Shown piece after piece: positions 5,822-28,220 of a stretch of DNA of 28,222 bases. Location of the stretch: the NCBI GenBank assembly GCA_029265085.1, contig JAJUJY010000042.1, positions 1-28,222 on the forward strand, read 5' to 3'. The notes beneath the pieces were generated by a model. The model was not told the DNA's origin. It searched no databases and saw only the letters and a program-made list of their open reading frames with translations. The position numbers were made by a program, and so were the translations under genes. How positions within the stretch are numbered: the first letter of the stretch is position 1; each line of letters opens with the position of its first letter. The DNA is from Chloroflexota bacterium. Its GTDB lineage: Bacteria > Chloroflexota > Anaerolineae > Anaerolineales > Anaerolineaceae.

Positions 5822-5920
5822 ACATTGATTTTACAAGTGCAAAATACTCAGCTTACGTCACCCTCCTATACTGGAATTCATAAGACCTTGTTCAACAAGA
5901 ATATTTGCATGGAGGAAAAC

Positions 5921-6502
5921 ATGAAATCGAGTATTTTGAAATTAACCAGCCTTTTGACTTTGATTGTGGTAATCGGTGGAATTTTGGCGCTTGCTCTACC
6001 TACCGGCACAGTTGCAGCATCTGCTATCCAGGAAGATACCCCGCCAAACTCAGAAAACGGGAATGGTTGGGGGCCACGAAAAGCCATCCTGGAGAAAGCA
6101 TTCAAACGAGAAAATGATTTGTTGGCTCACCTGGATGGGGATCTTGGCCGGATTCCTACTGTCGTTGAAAAAACCAATTCATTAATCGCAAAAGCACAGG
6201 CTAAAGGGCTTGATACCAGTAAAGTAGAAGCCGCACTGGCCGCCTATAAGAGCAGCGCCGCCGCGATAGCCCCGCTGCGCGATGAGGCTGCGGCAGTACT
6301 TGAAACCCATGCCGGTTTTGATGATAAGGGGAAAGTGACCGATTTGAAAATTGCTGCGGATACTGTCCGGACAGCCGGCGCAAAACTTCGCGAAGCGCAT
6401 CGAGCCTATCATGATGCTGGGCGTGAATTACGCCAGGCGGTGCGTGAATTTATTGAAGCCAATCGAAGTACGTTAGGACCAGCCGAAGCACCAGAAATGT
6501 AA
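5921..6502 (+). CDS. Small secreted alpha-helical protein of unknown function
   Basis: 193-residue protein not assigned to a named family. The start at 5921 is fixed by GGAGG 6 bases upstream; an in-frame extension to 5825 runs back towards the preceding terminator and has no ribosome site. Residues 1-35 form a signal peptide: a KSSILK n-region, a long hydrophobic core (about 10-28), and a probable cleavage after AASA, leaving IQEDTPP at the mature N-terminus. The mature part is rich in Ala, Glu, Lys and Arg and looks like a helical bundle or coiled coil (about 55-180), with no cysteine. It has terminators on both sides, so it is monocistronic. An extracellular or cell-surface helical role is an inference only. 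Confidence 0.8.
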   Translation: MKSSILKLTSLLTLIVVIGGILALALPTGTVAASAIQEDTPPNSENGNGWGPRKAILEKAFKRENDLLAHLDGDLGRIPTVVEKTNSLIAKAQAKGLDTSKVEAALAAYKSSAAAIAPLRDEAAAVLETHAGFDDKGKVTDLKIAADTVRTAGAKLREAHRAYHDAGRELRQAVREFIEANRSTLGPAEAPEM

Positions 6503-6577: not shown

Positions 6578-7153
6578 TTATTCTTTAGCGCCTAATTTCC
6601 AGGCTGCGGGCAGTATCCAGGCGGCCAGAGCGGCTTTGAGAATATCTCCTGGAATGAATGGGAGAACCCCGGCTGCCCAGGCTTTATCCAGCCCGATCAG
6701 GGTGGATAAATAGGCTGCGCCAAAGAAATAGATCACCAGGCTTCCCAGGCTGAATAAGGCAGCAACTTTATACCAGGTGCGGTCCCAACCGCGCTCAGCC
6801 AGAAATCCAACCAGAGCAGCAGCGGCCACAAAACCAACCAGGTAACCACCGGTTGGGCCAGTAAGAGCAGCCAGACCTGCACCGCCGCCCGTGAAAAAGG
6901 GTAATCCAGCAATGCCAGCGGTTACATACAATCCCAGGCTGGCAGTTCCGCGGCGAAATCCCAGTGCTGCGGCTACCAGTAAAACACCCAATGTCTGGCC
7001 AGTCACGGGAACAGGGGTGAAGGGAAGCGGAATTCTGACCTGTGCTAATAAAGCCACAATCAAAGTTCCTAACACAACAAAAGCAAAGTTAGTGAGCCAC
7101 CCCTGGCGAATACCGAGCCTGCGGGTGAAATTCAGAGCAAGCGTCTCGTGCAT
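6578..7153 (-). CDS. bioY: Biotin transporter substrate-binding (S) component BioY
   Basis: Membrane protein that captures biotin, either alone or as the S component of an ECF transporter whose energising module is elsewhere. The 191 residues contain about six hydrophobic segments. Family signatures are LAQVRIPLPFTPVPVTGQT (about 36-54), GLYVTAGIAGLPFF and the GPTGGYLVGF motif (about 99-108), followed by PFIPGDILKAALA near the C-terminus. GAGGT is placed about 8 bases before the ATG. No bioM/bioN ATPase or biotin synthesis gene is present in the window. A palindrome 37 bases upstream of the ATG is a possible operator. Confidence 0.93.
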   Translation of the reverse strand: MHETLALNFTRRLGIRQGWLTNFAFVVLGTLIVALLAQVRIPLPFTPVPVTGQTLGVLLVAAALGFRRGTASLGLYVTAGIAGLPFFTGGGAGLAALTGPTGGYLVGFVAAAALVGFLAERGWDRTWYKVAALFSLGSLVIYFFGAAYLSTLIGLDKAWAAGVLPFIPGDILKAALAAWILPAAWKLGAKE

Positions 7154-7190
7154 TTTTATTACCTCAAAAAATAGGATGGGTCTGGCGAAT

Positions 7191-7206
7191 ACCTGAATAC
7201 TCAGGT
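7191..7206. promoter_or_regulatory. Palindrome upstream of bioY, possible operator
   Basis: ACCTGA-ATAC-TCAGGT is a perfect inverted repeat of 6-bp arms with a 4-base spacer in the bioY leader region. A minus-strand TTGACC (7252-7257) and GTTAAT (7229-7234) with a 17-base spacer could be the promoter, putting the palindrome just downstream of the start of transcription. It does not resemble the long-spacer BirA operator of E. coli, so the regulator is unknown. Confidence 0.35.
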
Positions 7207-7321
7207 TGGGTACCGGTATGATTATGTCATTAACTCGCCTGGCAGAAAATCGGTCAATTGTTACTGGTTAAAACGCCATTCCTCCCCAAAAAGATACGCC
7301 AATATTCATGTTTAACCCGTG

Positions 7322-7330
7322 TGGTATAAT
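7322..7330 (+). promoter_or_regulatory. Extended -10 promoter of the carrier-protein/exporter operon
   Basis: TGG-TATAAT with the perfect -10 at 7325-7330, about 94 bases before the first gene of the operon. No strong -35 is seen. It is the only good plus-strand promoter found between bioY and 7424, so it probably drives all seven genes. Confidence 0.55.
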
Positions 7331-7423
7331 CCCCAATTGGTTTGGGAAGATGACAAATCGTAATCAATCTGTCAAATCATTTCTAAACTGTTCCAAAGAG
7401 CAAGAAAGAAAGGAAAATATCCA

Positions 7424-7669
7424 TTGAGCACACAAAGCTGGTTTGAACAGGTCAAAGAAGTTGTTGCTGGGGCGTTAGAGGTCTCGCCGGATCAAATAAC
7501 GGTTGACCTGGCTTATGGAGATATTCCCGAATGGGATTCAATGGGGCATATGAATGTGATGATGGCCATGGAAGATCGCTTTGGGGTTGAGATCACCACA
7601 GAGAATATTGCACAGTTGACTAGTTTGCCCATTCTGTGCGCTTACTTAGCGGAGCGCGAACATGATTAA
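7424..7669 (+). CDS. Acyl carrier protein-like aminoacyl carrier protein
   Basis: 81-residue phosphopantetheine carrier. EWDSMGHMNVMMAME (36-50) contains the attachment serine S39 in a DSM context rather than the DSL usual in fatty-acid ACP, and FGVEITTENIAQLTSL is a typical helix III region. It begins with TTG at 7424, with AAGGA about 9 bases upstream; no ATG is available in the correct place. Its last eight bases overlap the ligase gene. In the known amino acid:[carrier protein] ligase systems a small dedicated carrier is encoded beside the ligase, exactly as here. It is therefore more likely an aminoacyl carrier than the housekeeping fatty-acid ACP. Confidence 0.88.
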   Translation: MSTQSWFEQVKEVVAGALEVSPDQITVDLAYGDIPEWDSMGHMNVMMAMEDRFGVEITTENIAQLTSLPILCAYLAEREHD

Positions 7670-8852
7670 ATTTGAATTGCATCTTACCCCTGAAGTGCTT
7701 ATCCCTGATTTTTTGACCCGTGAAATTCAATCGAAGCTGGCTTATGTGGATGAACAGATTGAACAGGCAGCGGTTGCTGCGAATGGGCAATCGATTACGC
7801 TAACTTTAAAATCGGTTTTGGATGAAACGCATCAGGCTGAAATTACAGAAAAAGTTCAGCGGATTGTGCGCTCAATGGCAAAAGGCGCACGGAAGCCGAA
7901 AATTCAAGTTTTAGAAGAACACCTTGACCGCCCGATTCCCTATCAGCAAGACCCGATGGATCAATTGCTGGCTAGTGGTGAGTTATTTCAAGAAGGACAA
8001 GGTATTTTTACGCTTGGGCCGCTGCTCAGCAAATTAATTGCTTATCTGGAATCTCGTTTTGTGGAACTGGCAGATTCTTTTGAAGCAAAGCCCTATCGTT
8101 TCCCGACCTTGATTTCTGGCAAGTTCCTGGAGCGCGTAGGTTACTTTCGGGCTTTTCCGCATTCTCTGACCTTTGTGACGCATTTGCGTGAAGATTTGGA
8201 AGTGATTGAGGATTTTGCCGAACATGCCTGCTGCGGGGAGCACGGTTTAAATACAGCCATGGATTCTTTTTCATCAATCAATACCCTGGCTTCTCCGGCG
8301 GTTTGTTACCACCTTTATTTCACTCTGGCAGATAAACCATTGCCAGACGGCAAGTTGGTGGCTACTGCGGTAGGGAATTGCTTCCGTTATGAATCAAGCA
8401 ACCTGGTTTCATTAGAGCGGTTGTGGAATTTCACCATGCGCGAGATCATCTTTGTAGGTCCCCAGCAATATGTTCTGGACCAACGGGAAATTGGCCGCCA
8501 GCGGATGCAAAAAATATTGGCTGAATTAGGCCTGGCATACCAGGTGGAAACAGCGACCGACCCATTTTTTATTGGTGAGTTCAAACAGCAAACTGCTTTC
8601 CAGAGCGCTTTTCAATTGAAATTTGAAATCCGCGCCCGGCTGCCATTTAAAGACAGCACCTTAGCGGTCGGTTCTTATAACTATCATCAAGATTTCTTCG
8701 GCCGCCATTTGAATATCACTTTGCCTGAGGGTGGACCCGCGCATACCGGGTGTATTGCCTTTGGCTTGGAACGCATGGCTTATGCATTCCTGGCTCAGTA
8801 TGGATTTGATCCACAAAATTGGCCAGAGGCTGTGCGGAAGGCTGTGGCTTGA
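7662..8852 (+). CDS. Amino acid:[carrier protein] ligase, class II aminoacyl-tRNA synthetase homologue
   Basis: Predicted to activate a small amino acid with ATP and load it on the phosphopantetheine of the adjacent carrier. This family descends from the catalytic core of methanogen-type seryl-tRNA synthetase. Motif 2 is CFRYES (240-245) with the downstream RLWNFTMRE, and motif 3 is GCIAFGLERMAY (363-374). C215, E261 and C364 are placed as the three zinc ligands of characterised ligases and of methanogen SerRS. The 396 residues exceed the roughly 320 of the studied bradyrhizobial enzymes because of about 100 extra N-terminal residues of unknown role. GGAG sits 7 bases before the ATG, and the gene overlaps the carrier gene by 8 bases. 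A tRNA-charging role is unlikely. The amino acid specificity cannot be read; glycine or alanine is the family precedent. Confidence 0.85.
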   Translation: MIKFELHLTPEVLIPDFLTREIQSKLAYVDEQIEQAAVAANGQSITLTLKSVLDETHQAEITEKVQRIVRSMAKGARKPKIQVLEEHLDRPIPYQQDPMDQLLASGELFQEGQGIFTLGPLLSKLIAYLESRFVELADSFEAKPYRFPTLISGKFLERVGYFRAFPHSLTFVTHLREDLEVIEDFAEHACCGEHGLNTAMDSFSSINTLASPAVCYHLYFTLADKPLPDGKLVATAVGNCFRYESSNLVSLERLWNFTMREIIFVGPQQYVLDQREIGRQRMQKILAELGLAYQVETATDPFFIGEFKQQTAFQSAFQLKFEIRARLPFKDSTLAVGSYNYHQDFFGRHLNITLPEGGPAHTGCIAFGLERMAYAFLAQYGFDPQNWPEAVRKAVA

Positions 8853-9331
8853 GCGAGATTGTTATCCGTCCAGGGCTAAAGGACGACCTGCCAGCAGCGG
8901 CGGTGCTGTGGCAGGAATTGCAGTTCTTCCACCAAAAAGTTGGATTAGCCTTTCCACTGGATGAGCAAAGTCCCACTGCCTGGACAGCATCTTTTGAGCG
9001 AACGCTTGGCCGGTTCAGTTATTTATGGGTGGCGGAATTGGACGGTCAAATCAGTGGATTTCTCTTGGCAAGAGTTAAGCGAACTCCGGCCTATTTGGGC
9101 GGAGTGATGGTGGGAGAAATCAGTGATTTGTACGTTGCAGAAAGCCTGCGCGGGCAAAAAGTGGCTGCGCGTTTGGTGGCTTTGGCGCTGGAAGAATTCC
9201 AGCGGCAGCAAGTTCACTCAGTTGAGGTGCAGGTGATGGCCGCAAACCAGGGCGGAGTGGCTTTCTGGCATGCGCAGGGGTTTGAAACTGAATTAGTCCA
9301 GGTACGCCGCTCAATGAATTTGGAGGAGTAA
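8849..9331 (+). CDS. GNAT-family N-acetyltransferase
   Basis: 160-residue acyl-CoA-dependent acetyltransferase. The start is TTG at 8849, overlapping the ligase stop codon as TTGA, with GGAAGG about 7 bases upstream; a longer reading frame from 8819 lies wholly in the ligase gene and is not needed. The acetyl-CoA motif A region is EISDLYVAESLRGQKVAARL (about 92-111), with RGQKVA as the Q/RxxGxA-type loop, and motif B is AANQGGVAFWHAQGFE (about 130-145). The substrate is unknown. Translational coupling to the ligase suggests that the carrier-bound amino acid, or its released product, may be the amine that is acetylated; that is an inference. Confidence 0.85.
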   Translation: MSEIVIRPGLKDDLPAAAVLWQELQFFHQKVGLAFPLDEQSPTAWTASFERTLGRFSYLWVAELDGQISGFLLARVKRTPAYLGGVMVGEISDLYVAESLRGQKVAARLVALALEEFQRQQVHSVEVQVMAANQGGVAFWHAQGFETELVQVRRSMNLEE

Positions 9332-10123
9332 ATGCTGGAAGTAACCAGAGCGCAGGTGTTTGATGCATTAACCAGAATTGGAATTCAATCCGGAGATGGT
9401 TTGCTGATCCACTCTGCTATCCAGTTTTTAGGCAAACCGGCTGATGGGGTGGGAATGTATTGGCAGGTGATATCTGATGTATTAGGCCCGGATGGAACGG
9501 TTGTTGTGCCTGCTTTCAATTTTGATTTTGCACGCGGGGTCCCTTTTGACCCACAAAATACACCTTCAAAGGGAATGGGTGTTTTCCCGGAATATGTCCG
9601 GAAATTACCGCAGGCTGCTCGAACATTGCACCCGCTTCAATCTGTGGCAGCGGTTGGGCATTACCGTGATGACCTGACTGGTCGCGATACGCCCTCGGCA
9701 TTCGATCCCAATTCTGCATTTGACCGGATGCTGCAGTTAGATTTTAGGTTGTTGCTGCTTGGTGCGGATATTCAGGCGGCTTCTATGGTGCATTACAGTG
9801 AACAGCGTGCGGAAGTTCCTTATCGTTATTGGAAAAAATTTACGGGTGAGGTCAAAATTGGCGATACCTGGGTGCAGCGCTCCTATCGTATGTTTGTGCG
9901 TGACCTGGAAATTGGCCCTGAGTTAGACTTACACCCAATCCAGCATCTTTTAACTGAACGCGGCCAATGGCATTCCGAAAAATTGAATTATGGCTGGCTT
10001 TCCTCCTGCCGATTAAAGGACTTTGTCCAGGCGGCCGATGATTTGTTGGCAGAGCACCCGTGGAGTCTGGTCGGGAACGCTCCAGAGGCGATCGAACGAT
10101 ACCAATCAACTAAACGATATTAA
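9332..10123 (+). CDS. AAC(3)-family acyl-CoA N-acyltransferase
   Basis: 263-residue member of the antibiotic N-acetyltransferase AAC(3) fold. Landmarks are LLIHSAIQFLG (24-34), LGPDGTVVVPAFN (51-63), TPSKGMGVFPEYVRKLPQ (77-94), ARTLHPLQSVAAVG (96-109) and LLLGADIQAASMVHYSEQRA (141-160), with H154 and E157 matching the conserved active-site histidine and glutamate. The ATG follows the GNAT stop directly and is preceded by GGAGGAG. Despite the family name it should not be read as drug resistance: chromosomal members also occur in biosynthetic and surface-polysaccharide clusters. Its place between a carrier-protein ligase and a peptidase suggests acyl or aminoacyl transfer to an amine in a small-molecule pathway. 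Confidence 0.85.
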   Translation: MLEVTRAQVFDALTRIGIQSGDGLLIHSAIQFLGKPADGVGMYWQVISDVLGPDGTVVVPAFNFDFARGVPFDPQNTPSKGMGVFPEYVRKLPQAARTLHPLQSVAAVGHYRDDLTGRDTPSAFDPNSAFDRMLQLDFRLLLLGADIQAASMVHYSEQRAEVPYRYWKKFTGEVKIGDTWVQRSYRMFVRDLEIGPELDLHPIQHLLTERGQWHSEKLNYGWLSSCRLKDFVQAADDLLAEHPWSLVGNAPEAIERYQSTKRY

Positions 10124-10147
10124 ATCATATCAGCGGAGAGACAATTC

Positions 10148-11461
10148 ATGACCAGCATGATGGACCTGATCCAGGAGCTGTGGTTCCTACAGCGCAATAT
10201 CGTATCCGATGATTTTGACCGGGCTTTGGATCGCTTGTCCAAGGAAGTTCCCATGCATATTCACCAGTATCCAACGGGAGAAGCATGCTGGACCTGGCGG
10301 GTCCCCGAGAAGTGGTCTTGCCAGGAAGCCTTCCTTGAAACTTTGGACGGAAGGCGGGTTATTGATTTTGCCAATCATCCCCTGCATGTGATATCTTATT
10401 CGCTGCCATTTGAAGGTGTGGTGGATCGTGAGACTCTCTTAAAACATCTGCATGTCCACCCCAGGCTGCCAGAGGCCATTCCCTTTGTTTTTAAGTATTA
10501 CGACCGCGATTGGGGTTTATGTGCTTCGCAGCAGGTGCGTGATGGCCTTGAGGATCAAGAATATCGGGTTGTCATCCGGACAACATTTGAACCTTCCACG
10601 CTGAAAGTGGGGGAAATTGTTGTCCCCGGCCAGTCAAAAGAGTCTTTTGTGATTGTGACTCATTTATGCCATCCGGCAATGGTCAACGATGATTTAACCG
10701 GTGTTGTGGTCGCTTTGGAAGCCGCCCGTAAATTGCTGGCAGGTCCCCAACCCTATTACACATATCGTTTCTTGATTCTTCCAGAAACCATTGGCTCGGT
10801 GGCTTATCTCAGCCACCATGAAGATTTAATCCCGGATACGGTTGGCGGTTTGTTCCTGGAAATGCTTGGAAATGACTCGCCCCATTCTTTGCAGGGATCT
10901 TTCCAACCTCAAAGCCAGCCAGACAAAGTATTCAATGCCGCACTGATGGATCTGGATGCCCAGGCCAGCCAGGGTGCTTACCGGACAGTCATTAACAATG
11001 ATGAGCGCCAATTTAATGCGCCTGGCGTACGGGTGCCCATGCTTTCAATTTCCCGGGTAGAGCCAGCCGGCTCTCCTACCCGTCCCTACCGGGAGTATCA
11101 CTCTAGTTTTGATACTCCGGAGATAGTGACTGTGGATCGATTGGAACAGTCGCTTGAGGTAGTTCTTGGATTAATCCATGCCTGGGAAAATAATCAGTAT
11201 GTAGTCAATTATTTTAAAGGCGAGATTTTTTGTTCTGGCTACGGCATTTTTATTGACTATAAGGTTAATCCTGAAGGCCACCGGCGGCTGTTTGAGATTA
11301 TGGAACGAATCGATGGTGAGCATACAGTGGCAGATATCTCCAGTGAATTGAATTTGTCTTTTCAGCAGACCTTTGATGTGATTTCGCTGCTGGTTCGTAA
11401 AGGATTAGCCCAGTACAACCGCACCCCAAAGAGCACAAATCCGCATAAAATGAAGGCATGA
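10148..11461 (+). CDS. DUF4910/M28-like zinc aminopeptidase-domain protein with C-terminal winged helix
   Basis: 437-residue protein of the DUF2172/DUF4910 group, related to M28 zinc aminopeptidases but with unproven substrates. The ligand set is intact: THLCHPAMVNDDLTG (171-185) gives His and Asp ligands, PETIG (212-216) gives E213, and EYHSSFDTPE (316-325) gives H318. An N-terminal region (1-70) and a C-terminal winged-helix segment (about 375-425) complete the family architecture. No signal peptide is present, so it acts in the cytoplasm. GGAGAG lies 8 bases before the ATG; the stop overlaps the cydD-like start as ATGA. Relatives are found in polysaccharide and natural-product loci. Here it may remove an aminoacyl group or hydrolyse a product of the upstream enzymes. 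Confidence 0.85.
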   Translation: MTSMMDLIQELWFLQRNIVSDDFDRALDRLSKEVPMHIHQYPTGEACWTWRVPEKWSCQEAFLETLDGRRVIDFANHPLHVISYSLPFEGVVDRETLLKHLHVHPRLPEAIPFVFKYYDRDWGLCASQQVRDGLEDQEYRVVIRTTFEPSTLKVGEIVVPGQSKESFVIVTHLCHPAMVNDDLTGVVVALEAARKLLAGPQPYYTYRFLILPETIGSVAYLSHHEDLIPDTVGGLFLEMLGNDSPHSLQGSFQPQSQPDKVFNAALMDLDAQASQGAYRTVINNDERQFNAPGVRVPMLSISRVEPAGSPTRPYREYHSSFDTPEIVTVDRLEQSLEVVLGLIHAWENNQYVVNYFKGEIFCSGYGIFIDYKVNPEGHRRLFEIMERIDGEHTVADISSELNLSFQQTFDVISLLVRKGLAQYNRTPKSTNPHKMKA

Positions 11462-13200
11462 ACATTGATCCACGGCTGCTGCGTCAGGCGAAACTGGCGC
11501 AGGGAGCCTTGATTGCGACCATTTTGTTGGGCTTTACAGGTGGTCTGTTAACTGTTTTTCAGGCACGCCAGTTAAGCGCCATAATTAACCGTGTATTTTT
11601 GCTTGGGCAAGGATTGGCAGAGGTTCAATCTTTGTTTTGGGTGTTGCTGGGGATAATTTTAATCCGAGGTTTGGTCGCAGTTGGCAGTGAATTGTCTGCA
11701 GCGGCGGCGGCAGTCAAAATCAAGGAGCAAATTCGTGCCCAATTGTTCCAGCGATTAATGCAGCTGGGACCAGCCTATGCTCGCAATGAACAGTCTGGAG
11801 AAATCTCCAATACGCTGACACAGGGTGTGGAAGCCTTAGATGCGTATTTCAGCCAGTTTTTGCCCCAGTTAATTCTGGCGGCGTTGATCCCGCTATTGAT
11901 TTTGACGCTGGTTTTTCCGGTGGATGTACTTTCTGGGGTGGTGCTGCTGCTAACTGCACCGCTGATCCCCGTGTTTATGATCTTGATTGGAAAAGCCGCT
12001 GAAAATGTTACGCGCAAACAATGGGGCATTCTTAGCCGTTTAAGTGCTTTCTTTCTGGATACCCTACAGGGATTAACCACCCTCAAATTACTTGGGCAAA
12101 GCAAAGTACGAGCGGACAAGATTGACCAGGCCAGTGAGCGGTACCGGCAGGCCACGATGCAGGTATTGCGGGTGACATTTCTATCTGCTTTGGTGCTGGA
12201 ATTGGTTGGAACAATTTCTACAGCAGTGATCGCCGTTGAAATTGGGCTGCGGCTGTTATATGGGCGGTTAGGGTTTGAGCAGGCTTTTTTTATCCTGGTT
12301 ATAGCGCCTGAATTTTACCTGCCGCTGCGTTTACTAGGCCAGCGATTTCATGCCGGGGTTTCTGGGGTGACTGCTGCACAGCGGATTTTTGAAATCTTGG
12401 ATACGCCTTTGCCCGTTCACGTTCAGGTTGAGCAAGCAAAATCGACCACTCAACAAGATTTGCAAGCCCCGTATCAAATTGAATTTAATCACCTGACCTA
12501 TACCTACCCTGGACGCGAACAGGCTGCCGTTCAAGATATTTCTTTTACTTTATCTTTCGGGAAGATTACTGCCCTGGTCGGAGAGTCAGGTGGGGGAAAA
12601 AGTACCCTGGCTCAGCTTCTTTTGCGATTCGTCCAACCGGAATCTGGTGGTATTTGGGTGAATGGATTGGATATGCAAACAATTCCTGTGACTCTTTGGC
12701 GCAAGCAGGTGGCATGGGTTCCGCAGCAGCCGTATTTATTCCAGGGTAGTTTTGCGCAAAATATTGCCCTGGGGAGGCCGGAAGCCGGTCTAGAAGAAAT
12801 CCGGACTGCCGCAAAAGCCGCCGGATTGGACTCATTCATCCTTTCCTTAACCGATGGCTATGACACACAAATCGGTGAACGAGGTGCGCTTTTAAGCGGT
12901 GGTCAGGCTCAACGACTGGCTCTGGCAAGGGCTTTCCTGGTTAATGCCCCGGTGTTGGTGTTGGATGAGCCAACCGCTCACCTTGATCCTCAACAAGAGG
13001 CAGAAATTGAGGAGGTCACGCGCAAATTGTGCCAGGAACGTACGGTACTGGTCATTGCACATCGTTTGCCAACAGCAGCAACAGCGGATCAAATCCTGGT
13101 GATGGCTCAGGGCAAAATTATTGAACGGGGTACGCACGCTGAATTGATTTCAACGCAAGGGACGTATGCCCGGCTGGTACGCCAATATGGGGGTGGATGA
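11458..13200 (+). CDS. cydD: CydD-type subunit of a heterodimeric ABC exporter
   Basis: 580-residue half-transporter of the thiol reductant exporter type. In E. coli, CydDC exports cysteine and glutathione and is needed for cytochrome bd assembly. Residues 1-320 form the membrane domain with about six helices; TAPLIPVFMILIGKAAE and LVIAPEFYLPLRLLGQRFH are CydD-specific in character. The nucleotide-binding domain has Walker A GESGGGKST (about 374-382), signature LSGGQAQR and Walker B VLVLDEPTAHLD. It overlaps the peptidase gene by 4 bases and the cydC-like gene by 4 bases, so all are translationally coupled. No cydAB oxidase genes are in the window, leaving open whether it serves cytochrome bd or exports a product of the upstream enzymes. 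Confidence 0.9.
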   Translation: MNIDPRLLRQAKLAQGALIATILLGFTGGLLTVFQARQLSAIINRVFLLGQGLAEVQSLFWVLLGIILIRGLVAVGSELSAAAAAVKIKEQIRAQLFQRLMQLGPAYARNEQSGEISNTLTQGVEALDAYFSQFLPQLILAALIPLLILTLVFPVDVLSGVVLLLTAPLIPVFMILIGKAAENVTRKQWGILSRLSAFFLDTLQGLTTLKLLGQSKVRADKIDQASERYRQATMQVLRVTFLSALVLELVGTISTAVIAVEIGLRLLYGRLGFEQAFFILVIAPEFYLPLRLLGQRFHAGVSGVTAAQRIFEILDTPLPVHVQVEQAKSTTQQDLQAPYQIEFNHLTYTYPGREQAAVQDISFTLSFGKITALVGESGGGKSTLAQLLLRFVQPESGGIWVNGLDMQTIPVTLWRKQVAWVPQQPYLFQGSFAQNIALGRPEAGLEEIRTAAKAAGLDSFILSLTDGYDTQIGERGALLSGGQAQRLALARAFLVNAPVLVLDEPTAHLDPQQEAEIEEVTRKLCQERTVLVIAHRLPTAATADQILVMAQGKIIERGTHAELISTQGTYARLVRQYGGG

Positions 13201-14930
13201 TGAAAACGGTTTTCCGGTTGACCGCTTTCTTGCGTCCATTTTGGGGCTGGGTTCTGCTTTCAATTCTGATTGGCACTGCCACAATTGCCAGTGGTATTGG
13301 CCTGTTAGGAACTTCGGCTTATTTAATCGCAAAGGCGGCTTTACACCCTTCGATTGCCTATTTGCAGGTAGCGATTGTTGGTGTGCGTTTTTTTGGTATT
13401 TTGCGCGGTGTCTCTCTTTATGTGGAGCGGCTGGTTTCTCATTCGGTGAATTTTCGATTGTTAGCCCAATTACGCGGCTGGTTTTATCGGTCGGTGGAAC
13501 CATTGGCTCCGGCTGGATTAACCCAAACACATTCTGGAGACCTGTTAAATCGGGCAATCACGGATATTGAAACTCTGGAAAACTTTTATGTGCGGGTGGT
13601 TGCACCGCCGGTAATTGCATTAATCACCACATTGGGTTTAGGGGCGTTTTTTGGGCAGTTTCACCCGGTTTTAGGGGTGGTTTTGATCGTTGGGCTATTG
13701 ATCAGCGGAGCAGGAGTGCCAGTTTTGGCCCGACTGCTTAGTTGGCGGCCGGGGAAATTATTGGTGGATGAGCGCAGCCGGTTAAATACACTGCTGGTAG
13801 AAAGCATCCAGGGGATCAGCGATTTATCTGCGTATAGCCAAGAAGAGACTGTGGTTTATAAAATGAGGCAGGCAAATCAGGCGGTCAGCCATGCGCAGTC
13901 TCGTTTAGCCTGGACCGGCGCCCTCTCGGCGGGATTAAATTTGCTGGCAGCGAATCTAACAATGTGGGTTATTTTATGGGTTTCAGTCAACCTGGTACAG
14001 GCTAATCGTTTCGATGGGGTGATGTTGGCCGTGTTGGCCATGATGACCCTGGCCGGATTTGAAGCGGTCAATCCTTTGGGGCAGGCGGCTCAATTGTTGG
14101 AAAGCAGCCTCCAATCAGGCAGGCGGTTATTTGAACTGGCTGCTGCAATTCCGGCAGTCCATGAGCCGGACCAACCCGTACAGTCTCCATTGAACGCGGA
14201 TCTCTATGTGCATGGATTGCATTTTGCTTACAATCCTGGTGAGTTCCCTGTATTGGTTGATATTGACTTGCAGCTTCCGGAAGGCAAAAAGATTGCTCTG
14301 GTTGGACCAAGTGGGGCAGGAAAATCATCCCTTGTCAATGTTCTGCTGCGTTTTTGGCCGTATGAACGCGGGCGCCTGACCCTGGGGAACTGTGAGCTCA
14401 ACCAGCTTCCTTCTGAGGTTGTGCGCCGCTATTTTAGTGTCATTCCGCAATCTACCACCTTGTTTAGCGGGACAGTGCGGCAAAACCTGCTATTGGCAAA
14501 TCCTCAGGCGGGCGAAGATGCACTGGTTAATGCTTTACGGCGGGCAAACCTGATGAGTTGGCTGTCCAACCTGCCCCAGGGATTGGATACCTGGATTGGC
14601 GAGCAAGGCCAACAGATTAGCGGAGGAGAACGCCAACGCCTTGCCGTAGCGCGTGCCTTACTGCGTTCTGCGCCGATTTTAATTCTAGACGAAGCAACAG
14701 CAAACCTGGATGCTATCAATGAAAGGCAGCTGTTGGAGACTATTTTTGAAGTTGCTGAACAGCGTTCGATTCTGTTAATTACGCACCGGCTGGTTCAATT
14801 GGAACGAATGGATGAAATTTTGGTTTTGAATAATGGCAGGATTGTTGAGCGTGGGACCCATGCTGACCTGCTGCGGATGAATGGATTGTATGCCAGGATG
14901 TTGAAGATACAAAATCAGGCTTTGGAATAA
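13197..14930 (+). CDS. cydC: CydC-type subunit of a heterodimeric ABC exporter
   Basis: 577-residue partner of the preceding CydD-like protein. The membrane domain opens with GLLGTSAYLIAKAALHPSIA (about 35-54), then VGVRFFGILRGVSLYVERL and SGDLLNRAITDIETLENFYV, all strongly CydC-like. The ATPase domain has Walker A GPSGAGKSS (about 370-378), signature ISGGERQR and Walker B ILILDEATANLD. Two consecutive ATGs occur at 13197 and 13200; the first overlaps the cydD stop as ATGA and follows a G-rich ribosome site. It is the last gene of the operon, ended by a shared hairpin terminator. The exported substrate is not readable from sequence. Confidence 0.9.
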   Translation: MMKTVFRLTAFLRPFWGWVLLSILIGTATIASGIGLLGTSAYLIAKAALHPSIAYLQVAIVGVRFFGILRGVSLYVERLVSHSVNFRLLAQLRGWFYRSVEPLAPAGLTQTHSGDLLNRAITDIETLENFYVRVVAPPVIALITTLGLGAFFGQFHPVLGVVLIVGLLISGAGVPVLARLLSWRPGKLLVDERSRLNTLLVESIQGISDLSAYSQEETVVYKMRQANQAVSHAQSRLAWTGALSAGLNLLAANLTMWVILWVSVNLVQANRFDGVMLAVLAMMTLAGFEAVNPLGQAAQLLESSLQSGRRLFELAAAIPAVHEPDQPVQSPLNADLYVHGLHFAYNPGEFPVLVDIDLQLPEGKKIALVGPSGAGKSSLVNVLLRFWPYERGRLTLGNCELNQLPSEVVRRYFSVIPQSTTLFSGTVRQNLLLANPQAGEDALVNALRRANLMSWLSNLPQGLDTWIGEQGQQISGGERQRLAVARALLRSAPILILDEATANLDAINERQLLETIFEVAEQRSILLITHRLVQLERMDEILVLNNGRIVERGTHADLLRMNGLYARMLKIQNQALE

Positions 14931-14932
14931 AA

Positions 14933-14970
14933 AAAACGGGTGCACAATTCCAAAATGCGCACCCGTTTTA
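14933..14970. terminator. Bidirectional terminator between cydC and the CpXC gene
   Basis: An 11-bp perfect stem, AAAACGGGTGC (14933-14943) with GCACCCGTTTT (14959-14969), separated by 15 bases. Runs of A on the left and T on the right let it act for both the exporter operon (plus) and the convergent CpXC gene (minus). Confidence 0.85.
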
Positions 14971-14986
14971 TTGTTACAACCAGGAA

Positions 14987-16339
14987 TTACTTCTTGAGAT
15001 TATTCACCATAGACTGGCGTAAAGCCATGCGGTGAATATCTTTGAGGCCGTCTACCAGTTCTGCTGGCTGCTGTTGGGCTTCCGTCTGGGCGACCAGATT
15101 GGCAAGCAGCTCAACAAACTCTGATGTAACCATTTCTGATTTTTCCGCCATCTTCTTCTGGCGTTCTTCTCCGCTGGGGACGGAAAGCAATTCTTCAATG
15201 AACGCGAACTCCGGTGGCGGTGCAGAAGCTTTTTCAATCACAGCCGCCATGCGATTCAGCCGGGAAATCCGGTCGAGATCAGCTAATTTGCGGGCGATCT
15301 TTAATTCTTCTTGCAAAATTTCTGCAAATAATTCATCATAGCGGTCCAGGTTTTGTTCCATTGCCGCTTCAACGTTGGCGGAGGTCATAATCTGGTTGAT
15401 TAATTTCCGGCGAGCTTCTTTTTCTACCTGGATTTGCTCATCCATTTTCTTGGTAAAGTCCAGGAGGGATACCCGCAAGGCTTCCAGCTTTTGTTTGGTT
15501 TCACCTTCAGATTTTTCAATCCGCTCAGTGAGGATTTGGAAAAATTGGTAGTCTAACCCATTTCGAACCAGGCTGACCAGGGTAGATAAAGCAGCTTCGC
15601 TGGGAGCTTCCACCATCAGTTCAATCAGTTTTTCACGGGTGAGGCCTTCCTTGCTGGCTTCCTGGAGTTTCTGAATGGTTTGCTGCACTTCGGCGGTCTG
15701 AGCAGCCAGCCGTTGACCGACTTCAGTTTGTTCAACCAGTTCTTGCTGCAGTCCTGCCAGGCCGCGGGCAGTGCGCTCGTCACCTTGAGCCAGAGTGGCT
15801 TCAATTAATCGGGAAAGCATCGAGAAGAACGATTCATCGATCAGGTCTTTTTCCTGGGCAATGATTGTGGCACGGTCTTCTTTGTTGGCAGTCATCATAA
15901 TTCGCTGCAACAACTGCAGACGTTTTTGCTGGTCTTCAATCATTTGTTTGGTGATGCCGTCGCCTTCCAGGATGCGCTCTACCATCGTTTGAAAGGTGAG
16001 CATGCTTTGAGGCCGTAATAAATAGCCTTTGCGCTTTTCCATGGGCAGGTTGTTTACCACCTGGTTAATGATTGGACCAAACATTCTTTCTTGTTCGTTT
16101 AACGGCAGACCTAATTCAGAAGGGAAAAAGGTTAACAAGAGTTCTTTTTCCGGGTCGTGATAGACAATTGGGGTGCTGACCATGCCCTCATATCCGCAGC
16201 TAGGGCAGTGGATGACATTGACCATCCCGCTGAGTAGTTTCTGTTTGGCTTCTGGGTCCATTCCCAGGTCAAAGAGTTGTTCCACGTCTGCCATCAGCGG
16301 AGACTTACAGCGTGGACAGTTAGTTTGGATTTTCGGCAT
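14987..16339 (-). CDS. CpXC-domain zinc-ribbon protein with long coiled coil
   Basis: 450-residue cytoplasmic protein of unknown function. The N-terminal zinc ribbon has CPRC (C8, C11) and CPSCG (C45, C48), the CpXC-domain pattern, followed by a mixed domain to about residue 95. From about 130 to 440 it is almost entirely charged helix, rich in Glu, Gln and Lys, consistent with long coiled coils; there is no signal peptide or membrane segment. The ATG at 16339 has only a weak ribosome site. An extended -10 (TGG-TATAAT, minus strand) 38 bases upstream and a terminator downstream make it monocistronic. Neither neighbour suggests a role; a structural or scaffold function is only a guess. Confidence 0.85.
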   Translation of the reverse strand: MPKIQTNCPRCKSPLMADVEQLFDLGMDPEAKQKLLSGMVNVIHCPSCGYEGMVSTPIVYHDPEKELLLTFFPSELGLPLNEQERMFGPIINQVVNNLPMEKRKGYLLRPQSMLTFQTMVERILEGDGITKQMIEDQQKRLQLLQRIMMTANKEDRATIIAQEKDLIDESFFSMLSRLIEATLAQGDERTARGLAGLQQELVEQTEVGQRLAAQTAEVQQTIQKLQEASKEGLTREKLIELMVEAPSEAALSTLVSLVRNGLDYQFFQILTERIEKSEGETKQKLEALRVSLLDFTKKMDEQIQVEKEARRKLINQIMTSANVEAAMEQNLDRYDELFAEILQEELKIARKLADLDRISRLNRMAAVIEKASAPPPEFAFIEELLSVPSGEERQKKMAEKSEMVTSEFVELLANLVAQTEAQQQPAELVDGLKDIHRMALRQSMVNNLKK

Positions 16340-26903: not shown

Positions 26904-28220
26904 ATGACCATCCGTACCCTGATTATGGGCGCCGCGGGCCGCGACTTCCACAACTTTAATGTGTATTTCCGCGATAACAAGGAATACCAGGTTGTGGCTT
27001 TCACCGCGACCCAAATCCCTAACATCGAAGGCCGGCGCTATCCGGCAGAATTAGCGGGTTCATTGTATCCCGAGGGGATTCCGATCTATCCTGAAAGTGA
27101 ACTGGTTAACTTGATCAATGACCTCAAGGTTGATCAGGTTGTGTTTGCTTACAGCGATGTTGCCCACGAGTATGTTATGCACAAAGCATCCCAGGTGATG
27201 GCCGCTGGTGCAGATTTCCGCCTGATGGGTTTGAATAACACCCAGGTGAAATCAACCAAACCGGTTATTTCCATTTGTGCGGTTCGCACGGGTTCCGGCA
27301 AGAGCCAGACCACCCGCCGCGTTTCCTTGATCCTGCGCAGCATGGGTTTTCGCGTGGCTGCCATTCGTCACCCAATGCCCTATGGTGACCTGGTCAAGCA
27401 AAAGGTTCAACGCTTTGCGGATTACAGCGACCTGGACAAGCATGAGTGCACCATCGAAGAGCGCGAGGAATACGAACCACATCTCGACAACGGCGTGATT
27501 GTGTACGCTGGTGTTGATTATGAAGCGATCCTGCGCCAGGCTGAACAAGAAGTGGATATCGTCCTGTGGGACGGCGGCAACAATGACTTCTCTTTCTACA
27601 AGGAAGATTTGGCGATTGTTGTGGCAGACCCGCACCGCCCTGGTCATGAATACCGCTATCATCCCGGCGAGACCAACATCCGCCACGGTGATGTCTTCGT
27701 GATCAACAAGGTGGACACTGCTTCTCCGGAAGCTGTGATTGCTGTGCGCGAAAAGATCGTTGAATTGAATCCGGATGCCGTGATTATTGAAGGCGCTTCC
27801 CCCTTGTTTGTGGATGATCCCGATGCCATTCGCGGCAAGCGCGTTCTGGTCATTGAAGACGGCCCGACCCTGACCCACGGCGAAATGGCCTACGGTGCCG
27901 GTTGGGTGGCTGCCCGCCGCTTTGGCGCAGCCGAAATTGTGGATCCTCGCCCGTTTGCGGTGGGTTCAATCATCAGCACTTACGAAAAATACTCAAAAAC
28001 TGGCCCGATCCTGCCCGCAATGGGCTATGGTGAGGAACAGATGCGCGATCTGGAAGCAACTATTGACCGCGCTGACGTAGACCTGGTGATTTCCGCCACT
28101 CCGATTGATCTGACCCGCGTGATCAAGATCAACAAGCCGATGCAGCGCGTTCGCTATGAACTGCAGGAGATCGGCCAGCCAACATTGGAAGATATCCTGA
28201 AAGCCAAATTCGGCAAGTAA
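26904..28220 (+). CDS. Cyclic 2,3-diphosphoglycerate synthetase-family P-loop protein
   Basis: 438-residue cytoplasmic nucleotide-binding protein of the group (COG2403) that includes the archaeal cyclic 2,3-diphosphoglycerate synthetase. Residues 1-118 form a Rossmann-like N-terminal domain starting MTIRTLIMGAAGRDFHNFN. The P-loop AVRTGSGKSQTTRRV (126-140) opens the second domain, with VLWDGGNNDFSF (about 222-233) and VFVINKVDTA (about 268-277) as further nucleotide-site motifs. Most bacterial members are uncharacterised and often called predicted GTPases. It follows argS by 45 bases, with AGGAG 10 bases before the ATG. The nearby gap and pgk make a link to glycolytic phosphoglycerates attractive, but the reaction is unproven in bacteria. 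The stop is at 28218-28220, so the gene is complete. Confidence 0.82.
   Translation: MTIRTLIMGAAGRDFHNFNVYFRDNKEYQVVAFTATQIPNIEGRRYPAELAGSLYPEGIPIYPESELVNLINDLKVDQVVFAYSDVAHEYVMHKASQVMAAGADFRLMGLNNTQVKSTKPVISICAVRTGSGKSQTTRRVSLILRSMGFRVAAIRHPMPYGDLVKQKVQRFADYSDLDKHECTIEEREEYEPHLDNGVIVYAGVDYEAILRQAEQEVDIVLWDGGNNDFSFYKEDLAIVVADPHRPGHEYRYHPGETNIRHGDVFVINKVDTASPEAVIAVREKIVELNPDAVIIEGASPLFVDDPDAIRGKRVLVIEDGPTLTHGEMAYGAGWVAARRFGAAEIVDPRPFAVGSIISTYEKYSKTGPILPAMGYGEEQMRDLEATIDRADVDLVISATPIDLTRVIKINKPMQRVRYELQEIGQPTLEDILKAKFGK

Follow-up and report, generated by a model that had tools for sequence, protein, structure and literature searches.

What becomes of an amino acid once a ligase related to the seryl-tRNA synthetases (SerRS) has loaded it onto a carrier protein is the question raised by a locus of the Chloroflexota, the role of the aminoacyl-carriers being described as unknown in a 2022 review (PMC9437257). 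The locus lies in a stretch of 28,222 nucleotides, referred to here as the window, from a Chloroflexota bacterium of the family Anaerolineaceae (assembly GCA_029265085.1, contig JAJUJY010000042.1), in which genes encoding a carrier protein, a SerRS-like amino acid:[carrier protein] ligase, a GNAT N-acyltransferase, an AAC(3)-fold N-acyltransferase, a DUF4910 protein, CydD, and CydC follow one another. An initial annotation of the window had read these seven genes as a single coupled operon, and their order and their position on the forward strand (Table 1) are as it described. It had proposed, in addition, that the aminoacyl group is transferred or acetylated by the two acyltransferases, trimmed by a peptidase, and exported by CydDC, the product being an N-acyl amino acid, a small peptide, or an aminoacylated sugar or thiol. 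The present analysis indicates that the first five genes almost certainly constitute one functional unit, and that this unit (7424–11461) is probably a cassette that adds an amino acid to the precursor of a nonulosonate-type glycan, resembling sialic or pseudaminic acid.

A five-gene unit and its ligase

The ligase was found at 46 loci of a genome collection, 43 of which are in metagenome-assembled genomes (MAGs) of Chloroflexota, mostly Anaerolineales or Anaerolineae, while the remaining three are in two alphaproteobacteria and one acidobacterium. All the counts of module composition refer to the 43 Chloroflexota loci. The gene calls in the fetched loci are the longest open reading frames (ORFs), which leaves some genes hidden, the carriers above all, and the counts of the carrier were taken from tblastn and a carrier profile. 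A carrier adjoins the ligase in 40 of the 43 loci, and an AAC(3) gene is present in as many, all three misses falling at contig ends. DUF4910 is present in 35 loci, with seven of the eight misses at contig ends and a single true exception (L007), and GNAT is present in 38, including tandem copies in L016, L022, and L043; in L138, its slot is occupied by a formyltransferase. The order ligase–(GNAT)–AAC(3) is kept across the loci.

Co-inheritance provides a second line of evidence. The 201 genomes taken from the order to which the genome of L024 belongs, many of them fragmented and incomplete, comprise 41 with the ligase and 160 without it. Close homologues, defined as AAC(3) above 190 bits and DUF4910 above 400 bits, thresholds set after a gap had been seen in the score lists, are concentrated in the ligase-bearing genomes, that is, 39 of 41 versus 0 of 160 for AAC(3), setting aside one fragment (G209), and 38 of 41 versus 2 of 160 for DUF4910. 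In the two ligase-free genomes with a close DUF4910, this gene is on a contig 3.9 kb (G086) or 4.9 kb (G209) long, the first truncated immediately before DUF4910 and the second within AAC(3). The AAC(3) fragment of G209 (120 bits, 53%) and the DUF4910 fragments of G017, G057, and G129 were excluded by threshold or by eye, and a divergent DUF4910 copy (33%), located inside the module of G002, was also left out.

Given the composition of the loci and this co-occurrence, chance was rejected as an explanation for the adjacency of the five genes. The initial annotation had staked its proposal on the ligase–carrier pair keeping these neighbors in its relatives, and the pair is indeed tied to the acyltransferases and DUF4910 in the Chloroflexota loci. 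The core of the proposal survives, then, for the first five genes, whereas CydD and CydC, which it had counted as members of the same system, do not recur with them, and were found beside the module in none of the relatives covered.

The ligase resembles Bll0957, the structurally solved Gly:[carrier protein] ligase of Bradyrhizobium, the core of which is matched by residues 89–393 in a sequence search (E 4.7e-42), with 32–33% identity to the structures 3mey and 4h2s over about 310 columns. In a predicted model (mean pLDDT 83), the best fold match is also 4h2s, and the matches ranked next include archaeal SerRS; the score for the Pfam family tRNA-synt_2b is 24.3 bits, under the Pfam cut-off of 29.3. 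The zinc ligands C215, E261, and C364 are kept in all 37 of the ligase relatives, and are presumably the equivalents of Cys131, Glu176, and Cys279 in the Bll0957 type, a numbering that fits the sequence alignment with the window ligase. The two have in common the SerRS-derived class II core, the Cys/Glu/Cys zinc ligands, and an adjacent carrier, the phosphopantetheine serine of which lies, in the window, in the motif EWDSMGH. The window ligase differs in the extra N-terminus of about 90 residues that precedes the Bll0957-like part, of which residues 34–90 align with archaeal-type SerRS models and chains (the loss of the tRNA-binding N-terminal domain being a mark of the family), in its score of 186.7 bits for NF005479, which does not reach the cut-off of 357, and in the glycan context of its relatives. 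Because of this score and the longer N-terminus, it is treated here as a putative distinct subfamily, rather than an NF005479 equivalog, which would work like the known amino acid:[carrier protein] ligases. The title of the PDB entry 4h2s names glycine, and the characterized ligases of the Bll0957 type are assumed to use glycine or alanine; if the window ligase follows these enzymes, one or the other would be the amino acid loaded.

The ligase tree places the window sequence, L024, and L036 at its poorly resolved base, the latter two on long branches, and does not single them out as the oldest form of the module. In L037 (7221–13173), from a Rhodospirillaceae MAG, genes for a carrier, an AlgX-like protein, an MBOAT protein, the SerRS-like ligase, and an asparagine synthase stand in a row, and a cytidylyltransferase gene is also found there, while in L041, the ligase adjoins a divergent carrier and a gene resembling dehydroquinate (DHQ) synthase. 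Both of these contexts are again suggestive of sugar chemistry, with O-aminoacylation as one possibility. In L046 (2254–7389), from the Acidobacteria, a relative of the ligase (36%) adjoins genes for FabH-like, AurF-like N-oxygenase, and NAD_binding_4 reductase proteins, which is perhaps a different, small-molecule use of the aminoacyl-carrier.

Glycan context and proposed chemistry

In most of the relatives, the module is surrounded by genes of glycan synthesis. A NeuB, cytidylyltransferase, or capsule-type gene is present in 33 of the 43 loci, and 39 loci have one or more genes of the wider cluster, the others being L001, L024, L036, and L044, of which the last two have contigs 5.4 and 3.2 kb long. 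Capsule-type genes occur in 32 loci, NeuB in 26, the PseF- and NeuA-type cytidylyltransferases in 26 and 16, sulfotransferases in 22, and the ATP-sulfurylase and adenylylsulfate (APS) kinase genes, for the synthesis of phosphoadenylylsulfate (PAPS), in 15. The wider recurring set also includes short-chain dehydrogenases, GFO/IDH/MocA proteins, 2-hydroxyacid dehydrogenase, PF01973 (MptE/Maf-like) proteins, and glycosyltransferases. The gene that follows DUF4910, visible in 28 loci, encodes a sulfotransferase in 16, a glycosyltransferase in six, a 2-hydroxyacid dehydrogenase in one, and other products in five, and in G012 and G029, a second NeuB is found upstream in the module locus, together with PseB-like and RmlD-like genes. 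A cluster for a sulfated glycan of the sialic-acid-like kind would be expected to have such genes, the sugar class being assigned on account of NeuB and the cytidylyltransferases. Of the products that had been suggested initially, it is the aminoacylated sugar that this gene context favors.

The same kind of cluster also exists without the module. In 20 stretches from ligase-free genomes (L078–L097), hand-chosen for a good match to the capsule-type marker, none of the five module genes was found by tblastn or the carrier profile, and all 20 have the marker, which was hidden among the ORF picks in L087 and shown there by tblastn. The unit therefore behaves as an insertable cassette. Among the relatives, DUF4910 stands with an acyltransferase and a carrier at loci of the nonulosonate type (26 of the 43 have NeuB, and 33 have NeuB, a cytidylyltransferase, or a capsule-type gene), as a cassette resembling that of Cj1295 would, whereas the window itself does not show this setting. 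In L040 (6160–8067), NeuB is fused to a xylose-isomerase-like TIM barrel in a protein of 636 aa, and NeuB frames of similar length are present in many other genomes.

The DUF4910 protein had been labeled a zinc peptidase, and assigned the trimming of the product. The zinc ligands H175, D181, and H318, which correspond to the single site of PDB 3k9t, are present in all 53 aligned proteins (the 20 rows classed as distant include two of the module type, L136 and L137), while the catalytic Asp and Glu of the M28 peptidases are both replaced in all 53. The zinc of the earlier label stands, whereas peptide trimming is unlikely because both catalytic residues are lost, and was rejected on these grounds, as has also been argued for a solved member of the family (PMC4000134). 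The authors of that work proposed from gene context that CA_C2195 is responsible for the transacylation, or in principle the deacylation, of an amino sugar, and table 2 places DUF4910, an “aminosugar N-acetyltransferase”, an acyl carrier protein, and N-acetylneuraminate synthase together in the locus of C. acetobutylicum; an ATP-grasp amino acyl ligase is given for this cluster, and no SerRS-like ligase is named in the sections covered (PMC4000134). In Campylobacter, Cj1295 lies in the flagellin-glycan locus, and the di-O-methylglyceroyl amide at C5 of pseudaminic acid depends on it; its authors suggested that the acetyl group already present is removed by Cj1295, and placed it in one protein family with a C. 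acetobutylicum homologue (PMC3068675). Cj1295 would thus be a DUF4910 protein itself. These systems share with the window the mono-zinc site and the loss of the M28 catalytic pair, and the C. acetobutylicum locus also has the acyltransferase and the carrier beside DUF4910, although the Campylobacter group is di-O-methylglyceroyl rather than an amino acid, unlike the product proposed for the window. The neighboring Campylobacter genes Cj1296–Cj1299 presumably encode AAC(3)-like, acyltransferase, and carrier proteins.

The AAC(3) protein scores 122 bits for PF02522, against a cut-off of 25, and its residues H154 and E157 are invariant in 44 of 44 sequences. It belongs to the same sequence family as the aminoglycoside AAC(3) enzymes and FrbF, with which it shares the conserved His and Glu, but differs from the aminoglycoside enzymes in the lack of an aminoglycoside context and in its 94.6 bits for NCBIfam AAC_3, under the aminoglycoside-resistance cut-off of 270. 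The GNAT protein matched seven NCBIfam families, none of them PseH, the model of which is taken to be TIGR03585, and its identification as PseH was rejected.

The proposed mechanism draws directly on the existence and co-inheritance of the unit, on its location within the nonulosonate clusters of the relatives, and on the retained zinc and acyltransferase residues and the lost peptidase residues; the chemical steps, the amino acid, and the acceptor are what we infer beyond these. The SerRS-like ligase would activate a small amino acid with ATP and load it onto the phosphopantetheine of the carrier. The GNAT, represented by a formyltransferase in L138 and by nothing in some loci, may then cap the amine of the carrier-bound amino acid, or acylate another amine. 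The AAC(3)-fold enzyme would move the aminoacyl group off the carrier and onto an amine of the sugar, and the mono-zinc DUF4910 protein would remove the resident N-acyl group of that amine, or join AAC(3) in an exchange. The occupation of one slot by acetyl and formyl donors suggests the capping of an amine, with the acylation of the sugar as the alternative, and gramicidin synthetase offers a known case in which an amino acid is formylated while bound to its carrier. The cassette may, overall, replace the N-acyl substituent on a nonulosonate by an amino acid, with or without an N-acetyl or N-formyl cap, for which the SerRS-derived ligase and the carrier would supply the donor; the chances of this exchange are put at slightly below even, and the detailed order of the steps is offered more tentatively still.

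A number of observations weigh against this interpretation. No nonulosonate genes were found in the family scans of the ORFs of the 28-kb window, and two other modules are also detached, that of L024, which is flanked by a trigger-factor gene and an integrase, with the nonulosonate cluster of the genome on another contig, and that of L138, for which it is just the capsule-type marker that is shown on another contig of the genome (G212). These two modules are what suggests that the organism of the window may have nonulosonate genes elsewhere in its genome. Ten of the 43 loci, several of which are short contigs, have no NeuB, cytidylyltransferase, or capsule-type gene, and the capsule-type marker is common in the ligase-free genomes (105 of 160, with 15 genomes of weak match counted as lacking it), so its co-occurrence alone says little. 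No aminotransferase stands beside the module, the nearest strong DegT on the ligase contig, among the matches listed for the 30 genomes searched, being at a distance of 29–44 kb in 13 of 14 genomes and of 109 kb in G002, and an amine as the acceptor is therefore only presumed. GNAT is missing from five of the 43 loci, which means that capping is not essential, and the action of DUF4910, as a deacylase or in acyl exchange, is itself a proposal. The DUF4910 proteins of L001, L002, and L006 are divergent (30–34%), G209, counted as ligase-free, has its AAC(3) fragment at 53% identity, and the counts over the 201 genomes are uncorrected for kinship.

The ligase-free genomes also bear on the source of the acyl group. 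A distant DUF4910 (26–42% identity) is present in 45 of the 160 ligase-free genomes, 38 of which have an AAC(3) no more than 3 kb from it, and was found among the ligase-bearing genomes only in G002, in its own module. In 18 of these 45 loci, chosen by hand and fetched, the AAC(3)–DUF4910 pair follows NeuB in 13, in a pseudaminate-type operon, with PseB above its cut-off upstream in L120, the sole such locus scanned. In the other five (L125–L129), AAC(3) and DUF4910 share a single open frame of 708–739 residues, with no NeuB in the fetched stretch. The carrier profile found no carrier in any of the 18 loci, so that the donor there is probably another one, which, together with the loci that have no GNAT, is consistent with an arrangement in which acetyl-CoA is the donor for the acetylation of sugars by GNAT and AAC(3), and the ligase and carrier, for a different acceptor, have no more than the cassette in common with them. 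This arrangement is quite unlikely, however, given that a close AAC(3), one fragment aside, accompanies only the ligase and that the order ligase–(GNAT)–AAC(3) is kept. The distant pairs may be read instead as one AAC(3)–DUF4910 reaction, fed by a soluble acyl donor or, in the ligase-bearing genomes, by the aminoacyl-carrier.

The absence of an aminotransferase from the vicinity of the module would also be compatible with the transfer of the aminoacyl group to a glycan hydroxyl, as an ester, or to some other acceptor, such as a glycolipid, in the manner of the Dlt system, with AAC(3) and DUF4910 acting on a separate N-acyl group. The combination of ligase, carrier, MBOAT, and AlgX-like protein in L037, which presumably resembles DltA/C/B/D with a different ligase, also favors this possibility. 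In the Chloroflexota, however, the constant partner of the ligase is AAC(3), and not an MBOAT protein, and the AAC(3) enzymes are established as N-acyltransferases, which makes this possibility rather unlikely. Transfer to the amine of a nonulosonate, the preferred reading, resembles Dlt D-alanylation in that an amino acid is activated on a carrier and passed to a cell-surface polymer, whereas the Chloroflexota module differs in its unrelated ligase, in having no gene labeled MBOAT, and in a transfer that would be expected on a cytoplasmic sugar precursor.

CydDC and the remaining features of the window

The gaps at the junctions of the seven genes are, in order, −8, −4, 0, +24, −4, and −4 bases, which confirms that five of the six overlap or abut and that the sixth is separated by 24 bases. 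The seven genes are probably co-transcribed in the window, because CydD overlaps the end of DUF4910 by four bases and a terminator follows CydC. This arrangement, together with the existence of detached modules (the window, L024, and L138), can be cited in favor of a module that makes a small exported metabolite, either an N-acyl amino acid or a peptide, with CydDC as its exporter. In the relatives, however, CydD is next to the module in none of the 28 loci with a visible next gene, it was not found on the contig of the ligase in any of the 201 genomes, many of which are fragmented, and of its 79 occurrences, 57 are behind cydA, no more than 5 kb away and on the same strand. CydD is present in 21 of the 41 ligase-bearing genomes versus 57 of the 160 ligase-free genomes (p 0.07), which leaves 20 ligase-bearing genomes with no CydD at E<1e-100. 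The glycan genes around 33 of the 43 modules also speak against such a metabolite, and no condensation, non-ribosomal peptide synthetase (NRPS), or peptide-ligase family was found among the window ORFs scanned. The metabolite is very unlikely on this evidence, and CydDC as the exporter of the product, as originally proposed, was rejected on gene context.

It is very probable that CydDC is not part of the module, and it is most likely a neighbor in the window, involved in the assembly of cytochrome bd. Both subunits exceed their NCBIfam equivalog cut-offs (642 versus 435 bits for CydD and 498 versus 329 bits for CydC), and the window differs in that the family scans found neither cydA, which CydD mostly follows elsewhere, nor cydB among the ORFs scanned. 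In many of the genomes of L098–L117, the open frames matched by CydD are about 1,200 aa long, and are probably fusions of CydD and CydC, in comparison with the two genes of the window.

The initial annotation had also placed a promoter and a terminator around the set. The terminator is well supported by the hairpin, which could also serve a convergent gene, and the evidence for the promoter is divided, given that an extended −10 box precedes the carrier gene while a scan of 7150–15000 for the sigma-70 consensus found no site before this gene, and a total of sites not above that of shuffled sequences. Exact extended −10 boxes (TGNTATAAT) occur five times in the whole window versus 0.56 expected, and in none of 100 shuffles, which suggests that this organism commonly uses promoters of the extended −10 type. 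Two long ORFs of the window (5825–6502 and 26904–28220) have no Pfam match, and the second of these runs past the end of the window.

Table 1. Features of the module, its transcription signals, and its flanks in the window.
Feature	Position	Strand	Details
Carrier protein	7424..7669	+	81 aa, TTG start; PF00550 PP-binding, 29.0 bits
Seryl-tRNA-synthetase-like amino acid:[carrier protein] ligase	7662..8852	+	396 aa; Pfam tRNA-synt_2b; PDB 3mey/4h2s by sequence and fold
GNAT N-acyltransferase (variable module slot)	8849..9331	+	TTG start; PF00583 Acetyltransf_1
AAC(3)-fold N-acyltransferase	9332..10123	+	PF02522 Antibiotic_NAT
DUF4910/DUF2172 mono-zinc protein	10148..11461	+	Pfam DUF4910 and DUF2172; PDB 3k9t, 200 bits
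CydD	11458..13200	+	TIGR02857; ABC transporter family
CydC	13197..14930	+	TIGR02868; ABC transporter family
Extended −10 promoter-like box TGGTATAAT	7322..7330	+	93 bases upstream of the carrier start codon
Intrinsic terminator hairpin, two-sided	14933..14969	+	−19.1 kcal/mol, z −4.56; T-rich stretch follows
Flank, one side			Housekeeping-type: NuoF-like subunit, MobA-like, FdhD, SIS/PGI-type, BioY
Flank, other side			Housekeeping-type: CpXC, histidine kinase, aminotransferase, ROK, CofD, GAPDH, PGK, S20, ArgS

Significance of the cassette

The cassette represents a bounded hypothesis, of five proteins and one acceptor class, for which the carrier-free AAC(3)–DUF4910 pairs of the sister genomes provide a natural control. 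In the literature covered, which lay outside most subscription journals and bioRxiv, no title or opening of an abstract was found that links aminoacyl-carriers with nonulosonates. The cassette points to amino acids on the sulfated, sialic-acid-like glycans of the Anaerolineae, and sialylated and sulfated glycoconjugates have been reported from granular sludges (PMC10483923). If the proposal is correct, this would be the first physiological role for the aminoacyl-carrier proteins of this class of ligases, through which amino acid activation of the type used in translation would feed the chemistry of the cell-surface glycans.

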